A DNA stretch of 35,143 nucleotides from assembly GCA_021734065.1 (NCBI GenBank), contig JAIPJQ010000013.1, positions 1-35,143 on the forward strand, given 5' to 3'. This document shows, one piece after another, positions 24,680 to 26,864 of the stretch. Made by a program: the position numbers and the translations under genes. Source of the stretch: Fidelibacterota bacterium (GTDB taxonomy: Bacteria; Fidelibacterota; UBA8477). The notes below the pieces were generated by a model. The model ran no database searches. It had not been told where the DNA came from and saw only the letters and a program-made list of their open reading frames with translations. Position 1 is the first letter of the stretch. Each line of letters starts with the position of its first letter.

Positions 24680-24766
24680 GCCGAGGTGGTGGAATTGGTA
24701 GACACGCTATCTTGAGGGGGTAGTGAGCGAAAGCTTGTGCGGGTTCAAATCCCGCTCTCGGCACCA
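24680..24766 (+). tRNA. tRNA-Leu (anticodon GAG)
   Basis: The 87-base gene folds as a tRNA with CCA encoded. The acceptor stem GCCGAGG (24680-24686) pairs with TCTCGGC (24756-24762, one G-T wobble), then discriminator A and CCA (24764-24766). The anticodon stem CTATC/GGTAG encloses TTGAGGG, giving anticodon GAG at 24714-24716. The T arm is GCGGG-TTCAAAT-CCCGC (24739-24755). The long variable arm with an AGC-GAAA-GCT hairpin is right for leucine. It decodes CUC/CUU codons. Confidence 0.97.
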
Positions 24767-24772
24767 TCAGTC

Positions 24773-24797
24773 AAACCCCGTTGAGATGCGGGGTTTT
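24773..24797 (+). terminator. Rho-independent terminator after tRNA-Leu
   Basis: AAACCCCG (24773-24780) and CGGGGTTT (24789-24796) form a perfect eight-base stem with an eight-base loop, running into TTTT. It starts seven bases after the tRNA CCA end and probably terminates the fba-pgk-tpiA-secG-tRNA transcript. Confidence 0.88.
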
Positions 24798-25040: not shown

Positions 25041-26300
25041 ATGAAAAAATTATTAGTACTGGCAATTGTTTTTATGGCCGGACTCGGGGTAGCGAAAGCT
25101 GAAAATACCGAAGCCCAGGCATTGATCAAGGAAGCCCGGCAGGCTATCGCCGAACTCCATCTGAGTGATGCTGACGCAAAGTATAAAGAGGCTATCGACG
25201 TCATTGAGCAGGAATTGGACTATGAGGAGGCCGAGAGCAAAGCGGCCCGTGATGAGTGGAAACGTCTGCAAGCCATTACCCAACTCCTGGCGGATGGTAG
25301 TCGTTCACTGGAGCGTCAGGATTATGCGGATGCCGGGAAACGGTATGCTGAGGCCATTGAGACCATGTCCTCCTATAAGGACGCCATCTGGGATCGCGCC
25401 ATGGCAGAGGCTTACTATCAGTGGGGCATGAGTTTTTATCGGCAGGAAAACACTGCGGAGGCTGCCGCCAGATTCCGGGAAGCTATTTCCAAGGCACCAG
25501 AGCAGGAAAATTACAATAAAGCACTCTACAATATCGTGGTGAGGCACTACAACGAAGGGCTGAAATATTACCGTCGTCGGGATTTCCGGAATGCCAGACT
25601 GGAATATGAGCAGAGTGTTGCCGTTGATCCCACCTTCTCCCAGGGTTATTACATGTTAGCCCTTATTGCGAAAATGGATAATGACGCCGACAAAGCCATG
25701 GACTATTACCAAAAGGCGATCGACAATGATCCCCGGTATTACATTGCCTGGTTTGGCCTGGGGAAATTATATACCGATCTGGGGCGCATGAGCAAGGCAG
25801 TGGATGCATTTAGCCGCACCATCAGCATCAATCCCACCTATCACAAAGCATATTTTGAGCGCGGCCAGGCCTATCTCTCCCTGAAGGAGAAGAGCAAAGC
25901 TATTGCCGACCTGCAAATGGCTCTGAGTTTGGATGATGAATATACATTGGCCTACGAAGCACTGGGACTGGTCTATAATGAAGACCATAAATATGAAGAG
26001 GCCATTCGATTACTCATGCCGATTAAAGGTACCAAGTCAGCCAGCTACAAAACCTGCTATTATATGGCTCAGGCGTATAATGAGACAAAAAACTTCGAAG
26101 AAGCATTGAAATGTGCCACCAACTCATTGACCCAGAAATCAGGCTGGGCTCCGGCATTGTTTGAGAAAGGCCGGGCATTGGCAGCCATGAATCAGAAAAG
26201 CGAAGCCATCGCAGCTTTTAAACAGGCCGCCAAGGATTCCAGATGGAAGTCGGCTGCCGAGTATGAAATCAATCTGCTCACCAAATGGGCCGATCGATAG
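25041..26300 (+). CDS. Exported TPR-repeat protein
   Basis: The 419-residue protein has a signal peptide (MKKLLVLAIVFMAGLGVAKA) and then tetratricopeptide repeats over most of its length, recognisable by A-x-x-x-F/Y-x-x-A-I-x-x-x-P (for example FSQGYYMLALIAKMDNDADKAMDYYQKAID, YYIAWFGLGKLYTDLG and YHKAYFERGQAYLSL, given in parts). The first 100 residues are more acidic and helical. TPR proteins are scaffolds for protein complexes; many exported ones work at the envelope. The ATG at 25041 is preceded by GGGAG at 25026-25030. An upstream ATG at 25005 would bury the signal peptide. Confidence 0.87.
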   Translation: MKKLLVLAIVFMAGLGVAKAENTEAQALIKEARQAIAELHLSDADAKYKEAIDVIEQELDYEEAESKAARDEWKRLQAITQLLADGSRSLERQDYADAGKRYAEAIETMSSYKDAIWDRAMAEAYYQWGMSFYRQENTAEAAARFREAISKAPEQENYNKALYNIVVRHYNEGLKYYRRRDFRNARLEYEQSVAVDPTFSQGYYMLALIAKMDNDADKAMDYYQKAIDNDPRYYIAWFGLGKLYTDLGRMSKAVDAFSRTISINPTYHKAYFERGQAYLSLKEKSKAIADLQMALSLDDEYTLAYEALGLVYNEDHKYEEAIRLLMPIKGTKSASYKTCYYMAQAYNETKNFEEALKCATNSLTQKSGWAPALFEKGRALAAMNQKSEAIAAFKQAAKDSRWKSAAEYEINLLTKWADR

Positions 26301-26344
26301 CCTGCATTACAGGGTATAATTCAAGACGACCTTCAGATCAGGAT

Positions 26345-26390
26345 TGTAACAGACAAGAGGTGACCGGCGAGTCACCTCTTGTCTGTTACA
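26345..26390. repeat. Perfect 20-bp inverted repeat with six-base loop
   Basis: The left arm (26345-26364, beginning TGTAACAGACAAGAGG) is matched base for base by the complementary right arm (26371-26390) around CGGCGA. A perfect stem this long is uncommon by chance. It starts 45 bases after the TPR stop. No T-run follows on either side, so it is not a standard terminator. It could be a transcription-end hairpin without a tail, a protein-binding palindrome, or a member of a palindromic repeat family. Confidence 0.85.
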
Positions 26391-26495
26391 GGTATTACAA
26401 AATAGCAGAATTGAAGATTGCCGTTGCTGAAGTTTCCCCCTGTCCTAAATTCCGGGCAGGATGACATTCTTTTCGGTGACAGCAGCAGAGTAAGT

Positions 26496-26864
26496 ATGAA
26501 AATTACCGGGGTAGGAACTGACTTGGTTAAAGTGGCACGCATTGATGGGCTGCTGCAGCGTTACGGAGAGCGCTTCATGCGCAAAATTTTTACGGACAGG
26601 GAGATCCGGGACTGCTCGAACCGGCCGGAACCGGCGGTACACTTTTCCGGACGATTCGCTGCCAAAGAAGCTGTTGCCAAGGCCGCTTACCAGGGGGGCT
26701 GGCTGGAGGTGATTCCCTGGCGAAATATCGAAATCACAACGGATGAATACGGACGCCCGTCGGTGACGATTGCCCCGGAGGTTTTCAGCGTCTGTCATAT
26801 TTCCATCGCTCATGATGGTGAATATGCCCAGGCATTCGCAGTGGGGGAGCGTGATCATGACTAA
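26496..26864 (+). CDS. acpS: Holo-[acyl-carrier-protein] synthase
   Basis: AcpS moves the phosphopantetheine arm from CoA onto acyl carrier protein. The 122-residue product has GVGTDLVKVARI (Mg ligand D9), RYGERFMRKIFTDREI and GRFAAKEAVAKA (Mg ligand E58), plus a SIAHDGEYAQAFAV end. I chose ATG 26496 because it gives the family MKIxGxGxD start; upstream in-frame codons would add unrelated residues. Its stop lies inside the next gene (eight-base overlap), a pairing of acpS and nnr genes seen in many bacteria. Confidence 0.93.
   Translation: MKITGVGTDLVKVARIDGLLQRYGERFMRKIFTDREIRDCSNRPEPAVHFSGRFAAKEAVAKAAYQGGWLEVIPWRNIEITTDEYGRPSVTIAPEVFSVCHISIAHDGEYAQAFAVGERDHD

Follow-up and report, generated by a model that had tools for sequence, protein, structure and literature searches.

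The locus and its hairpin

Downstream of a gene for a TPR-repeat protein, and ahead of a gene that we take to be acpS (holo-ACP synthase) from its GVGTDLV motif, lies a long inverted repeat that raises the question of why a gene should end in a perfectly paired hairpin with no T-run. The whole stretch of DNA that was analyzed (35,143 nt) is referred to here as the window. The two arms of the repeat, 26345-26364 (TGTAACAGACAAGAGGTGAC) and 26371-26390, are complementary at every one of their 20 positions (100%) and enclose a loop of 6 bases, which confirmed the perfect arms, short loop and lack of a T-run described in the initial annotation, with its coordinates exact. No longer inverted repeat was present in the window. 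The hairpin is on the strand of the TPR gene, starting 44 bases past its stop codon and ending 105 bases ahead of acpS (Table 1). The predicted RNA fold of the segment has an energy of -35.6 kcal/mol (z -7.6), which none of 200 dinucleotide shuffles equalled.

In several respects the hairpin resembles an intrinsic terminator: it stands just past a stop codon, it has a small loop and a core stem with G-C pairs, and its position is kept across the order (see below). It differs in that any 8-base window around its 3' foot holds at most three T, that is, the defining T-tract of intrinsic terminators is absent, and in that a perfect 20-bp stem covers the place of the T-rich tail of its relatives. 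A consensus terminator scan of the window did not list the hairpin, because that scan demands T's, and a search of Rfam at the gathering score gave no match to it, the sole match in the window being a tRNA-Leu.

Table 1. Features of the TPR-acpS interval, in window positions; G000 is the window's own genome, G001 and G002 are its two congeners.
Feature	Position	Strand	Sequence	Remarks
TPR-repeat protein gene	25041-26300	+		ORF; longest ORF from 25005; start codon chosen by reading; stop TAG at 26298-26300
TCAGGA block	26337-26342	+	TCAGGA	Common to G000 and G002, just outside the hairpin (alignment)
Outer 5' arm	26345-26354	+	TGTAACAGAC	Rewritten part in G000; 2/10 columns as in G002, 2/10 as in G001 (MAFFT)
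Inner (core) 5' arm of terminator stem	26355-26364	+	AAGAGGTGAC	10/10 in G002, 9/10 in G001
Loop	26365-26370	+	CGGCGA	
Inner (core) 3' arm	26371-26380	+	GTCACCTCTT	Same in all three congeneric genomes
Outer 3' arm	26381-26390	+	GTCTGTTACA	Occupies the place of the relatives' U-rich tail; 7/10 columns as in G002
Conserved leader before acpS	26408-26495	+		Alignment with G002; promoter role inferred
acpS (holo-ACP synthase), downstream gene	26496-26864	+		ORF; GVGTDLV motif; ATG at 26496 by reading

The TPR protein has orthologues of 89% identity in congener G002 and 67% in congener G001, and its nearest named relatives, by which the genome was assigned to Ca. Neomarinimicrobiota, were Ca. Neomarinimicrobiota Tobar14m-G40 (89%) and Ca. 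Marinimicrobia CG1_02_48_14 (67%). The TPR gene is preceded, at 24680-24796, by a tRNA-Leu(GAG) followed by a terminator-like hairpin of 9 pairs with a short T-tail. Over 26408-26497, the leader of acpS matched G002 in 73 of 93 alignment columns, and it was better kept than the spacer around the hairpin, where 24 of 54 columns matched on the upstream side and 7 of 17 on the downstream side. This leader is probably the acpS promoter region, although no promoter motif was established within 26408-26495, and acpS is probably expressed from it.

Rarity and copy number of the stem

To place the length of the stem, perfect stems of at least 9 bp, with at least four G/C and a loop of 3-8, were surveyed and deduplicated across 41 stretches of this genome, including the window, which cover 755,169 of its 2,509,273 bases. 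The 32 stems identified were of 9 bp (nine stems), 10 bp (eight), 11 bp (eight), 12 bp (three), 13 bp (two), 14 bp (one) and 20 bp (the window's), leaving 14 bp as the runner-up. When two mismatches were allowed, the next hairpin of the own genome had 16 pairs, as did the longest stem in 416,090 bases of G002, also with two mismatches. The 20-bp stem is far from chance. In E. coli, inverted-repeat arms of at least 13 bp are described as scarce in the genome (PMC6060812).

Two other hairpins of the sample deserve mention as observations in their own right. The second strongest (L068:6613-6658, contig C117) is an inverted repeat of 18 positions, two of them mismatched, around a 10-base loop, with TTTAACAG behind it. 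A perfect 13-bp stem without a T-run occurs at L065:15290-15319 (contig C31), in a region that matches neither congener.

Membership in a dispersed palindromic repeat family, or an origin as a miniature mobile element, would be in keeping with perfect inverted arms, and a palindromic family was among the possibilities raised in the initial annotation. Intergenic palindromes of the REP type share this layout with the window hairpin, but unlike them it is single copy and therefore not a repeat family. Leaving aside 14-base matches, a BLAST search of the hairpin region against the own genome (82% complete) returned nothing but that region and its reverse complement. A 16-base arm pattern with up to three mismatches found 10 sites there, the window's two arms and eight at three mismatches, and the same pattern written backward found 18, more than the real one. 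The 20-base arm with 0-2 mismatches occurred in the own genome only, among 23 genomes of the order. Based on this single copy and its uniqueness in the order, the dispersed repeat was rejected, and we consider it scarcely credible.

An error of assembly or consensus that made the arms identical is conceivable in a draft genome of 170 contigs. The site, though, is inside a 35-kb contig, its flanking genes are arranged as in G002 and G001, and the core of the hairpin is conserved; moreover, fold-back artefacts usually leave longer inversions. We regard an artefact as very unlikely.

Use of T-runs at the gene ends of this genome

The initial annotation had allowed that the hairpin would be an ordinary terminator if many genes in the genome used T-less hairpins. 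Gene ends with a free interval of at least 60 bases numbered 256, and we looked for a strong hairpin within 100 bases of each. There were 38 strong hairpins, in a count that relied on a simple ORF rule for its genes and may include one hairpin twice where genes converge, and 28 of the 38 had at least 5 T in the 8 bases at the stem foot, as against 10 with 4 or fewer. Shuffled downstream regions yielded three strong hairpins, and the shuffled and Markov controls were small. T-tailed terminators are thus the rule in this genome and the window's hairpin is an exception, so that widespread use of T-less hairpins did not account for it. For comparison, most inverted repeats of at least 8 bp (spacer up to 8) at E. 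coli gene ends are described as intrinsic terminators (PMC6060812).

The same site across the order

The 110 bases past the TPR stop codon were read in 22 members of the order, including the window, out of 23 genomes. The genome left out (G011) had a weak sole TPR hit (E 2.9e-11), and phylum-level hits were not counted. In 20 of the 22 members acpS was within 500 nt of the TPR gene; the two others were L030, which has 197 bases left before the end of its contig, and L027. A hairpin beginning 24-57 nt past the TPR stop was present in 21 of the 22. Among these 21 hairpins, 17 had perfect stems of at least 8 bp as determined by script, and four (L020, L025, L030 and L032) were imperfect and read from the sequence. 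Of the 21 other members that carry the TPR gene, 20 had a stem running into a T-run; L027 had no intact hairpin. The T-runs comprised 6-8 T per 8 bases behind the perfect stems (by script) and TTTTT or longer behind the four imperfect ones (by reading). The window's hairpin was the only one of the 21 at this site with no T-run, and has its 20-bp stem instead.

In L027 (genome G020, contig C68), the sequence past the TPR stop has the appearance of a hairpin interrupted by an insertion: the hairpin is not intact, and acpS is not within 500 nt even though sequence is present.

The sequence of the dyad is unlike that of the genus in the other groups. Stems of the sister family were of the type GGGCTGTC/GACAGCCC, that of the single g2 genome was CCACCTC/GAGGTGG, and when the 231-base interval was searched as DNA outside the genus, no match rose above chance level (best E 0.015). 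An element that is conserved across the order while its sequence is not is the pattern expected of a terminator. Given the same site, a hairpin in 21 of 22 members and a T-run in 20 relatives, we conclude that the hairpin is very probably the intrinsic (Rho-independent) terminator of the TPR gene, orthologous across the order. The comparison of the interval in relatives thereby bore out one suggestion of the initial annotation, an RNA hairpin at the end of the TPR mRNA, as the site is the order's conserved terminator position.

These same data weighed on the suggestion of a protein-binding site. A DNA operator for a dimeric regulator of acpS would explain why a symmetric dyad precedes a gene start, but the symmetry is close behind the TPR stop codon and farther from acpS, the loop and the outer arms vary within the genus, and outside the genus the dyad sequence is lost whereas hairpin and T-run are kept. 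We find an operator highly improbable.

Differences between the window and its congeners

Comparison of the own genome with its two congeners, G001 and G002, separated the hairpin into an old and a new part. In the inner 10 bp, 39 of 40 bases were kept over both congeners. The outer arms, when paired in register, matched at 10 of 10 positions in G000, at 2 of 10 in G002, and at 2 of 10 plus one G-U in G001. Both congeners have a perfect stem of 10-11 bp as compared to 20 bp in G000, and neither shows a stem of intermediate length, in a comparison that covers these two congeners only. Past the core, G002 has CTCTTTTC and G001 has TGGTTTTT where G000 has the outer 3' arm. The interval from the TCAGGA block to the core is 11 bases long in both G000 and G002, and 9 of these differ. 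Together, the order-wide position and the genus comparison indicate that this is probably a conserved TPR terminator with a stem that has recently grown, from about 10-11 bp to a perfect 20 bp. The initial annotation had proposed recent origin or selection, and the outer 10 bp were indeed found only in this genome. Perfect inverted repeats near terminators have been described as having conserved arms and spacers that vary within species (PMC13155455).

The origin of the outer 5' arm was examined by alignment. It matched the reverse complement of the G002 3' flank at 7 of 10 positions, and its own G002 homologue at 3 of 10 with one gap (2 ungapped). Only 2.2% of random 10-mers from the window reached 7 matches and 0.10% showed as large a difference, and permuting the letters of the arm gave 7 matches in 4.1%. 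The changes at the hairpin are clustered, are complementary to the opposite arm and have conserved sequence on both sides, a description that depends on the alignment. On balance, these matches argue for the outer 10 bp being the product of a template switch ("quasipalindrome correction"), and we favor this origin, with some reserve, the ancestral state being judged from two congeners only.

A stepwise gain of the outer 10 bp, selected for a more stable stem that would protect the mRNA 3' end or terminate in two directions, would explain the same stem differently. Other strong hairpins of this genome pair an upstream A-run with their T-run to give stems of 12-15 bp. In addition, blastn aligned the outer 5' arm with more matches than MAFFT, recovering AACA at the price of two 3-base gaps, so that some bases of the arm are shared and stepwise change with indels is possible. 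Against this, the outer arm is of mixed sequence rather than an A-run facing a T-run, the other 31 perfect stems in 755 kb are all of 14 bp or less, and there is no intermediate in either congener. We therefore think a stepwise gain unlikely.

Template switching is a described source of such changes. In the quasipalindrome mutations reported from E. coli (PMC7202029), an imperfect inverted repeat becomes perfect through clustered changes for which the opposite arm accounts, as at the window hairpin; the event here is deduced from the comparison of natural genomes and was not seen as a mutation. Template switching is also described as a source of perfect RNA stems, with a multi-base change that creates the stem in one step (PMC8794818), a likeness to the present case that crosses from the microRNA and rRNA genes of that source to a terminator between bacterial genes. 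In our searches of open-licence PMC literature, no title or abstract opening dealt with the evolution of bacterial terminators by template switch or quasipalindrome, and a literature search on Bacteroidetes and U-tract terminators found no paper.

A second, smaller case

Comparable changes were sought among the 32 perfect-stem hairpins, 12 of which had a match in the G002 stretches compared and 11 of which aligned across the hairpin. With regard to the other long hairpins of the own genome, the regions of L126 and L057 were matched in congeners, L127 had only a 28-base match and L065 had none. By reading, two of those compared had gained pairs by a clustered change outside the core, namely the window hairpin and L057:15965-15996, in a sample that was selected for perfection in G000 and so favored gains by design. 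The latter, on contig C6, is also a terminator; its stem is perfect over 13 bp, and the G002 counterpart of this stem is broken by two adjacent mismatches. The change of AA to TG that perfects this stem also breaks up the minus-strand T-run, leaving it shorter than in G002. Two adjacent changes at this site are, by themselves, weak evidence for a template switch.

Proposed origin of the outer stem and its consequences

Under the template-switch origin, a replication fork would have stalled at the short hairpin and copied the flank of the opposite arm. The 5' flank would thereby have become complementary to the former T-rich tail (TTGTCTGTT), which would now serve as the 3' arm. With the tail turned into an arm, canonical release should be weaker. 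RNA polymerase would form the inner hairpin first, and termination may persist, probably in weaker form. Any read-through RNA would bear at its 3' end a highly stable stem of 20 bp, which would be expected to stop 3' exonucleases and might be cleaved by RNase III.

A stronger version of this loss is a decaying or dead terminator, whose U-tract was swallowed by the outer stem and whose TPR transcript would run on into acpS or be ended by Rho; it is compatible with an origin by template switch. The T-tail score past the core stem was 2.45 in G000, compared with 3.64 in G002 and 3.37 in G001, and fell to 2.05 past the full stem of G000; the background had a median of 1.87 and a 90th percentile of 2.84, so that the tail of G000 scored at background level. 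The lack of a T-run at this one hairpin of the 21 also favors decay. On the other side, the core is untouched, the order of both genes is kept, and partial termination is still possible where strong stems are backed by weak U-tracts. We hold decay to be a serious possibility, though a tentative one. By ancestry, the hairpin is an ordinary T-tailed terminator that has been altered in this genome. Of the interpretation offered in the initial annotation, recent origin and an RNA hairpin closing the TPR mRNA have stood, and the palindromic family and the binding site have not.

It is also imaginable, although we deem it improbable, that repeated template switching "perfects" terminator hairpins, using up their U-tracts and leaving U-less, very stable stems at 3' ends. 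The window hairpin and L057:15965-15996 would then be two snapshots of the process in one genome, and if this were true, some of the long hairpins that stand without T's at the ends of bacterial genes would be due to mutation bias and not to selection.

The preferred reading, a conserved terminator with its tail turned into an arm, would account for a puzzling T-less perfect hairpin without recourse to a new system. If the template-switch mechanism holds, a mutation process acting on hairpins can oppose the function of the terminators that they form, and may be a source of U-less hairpins at 3' ends.
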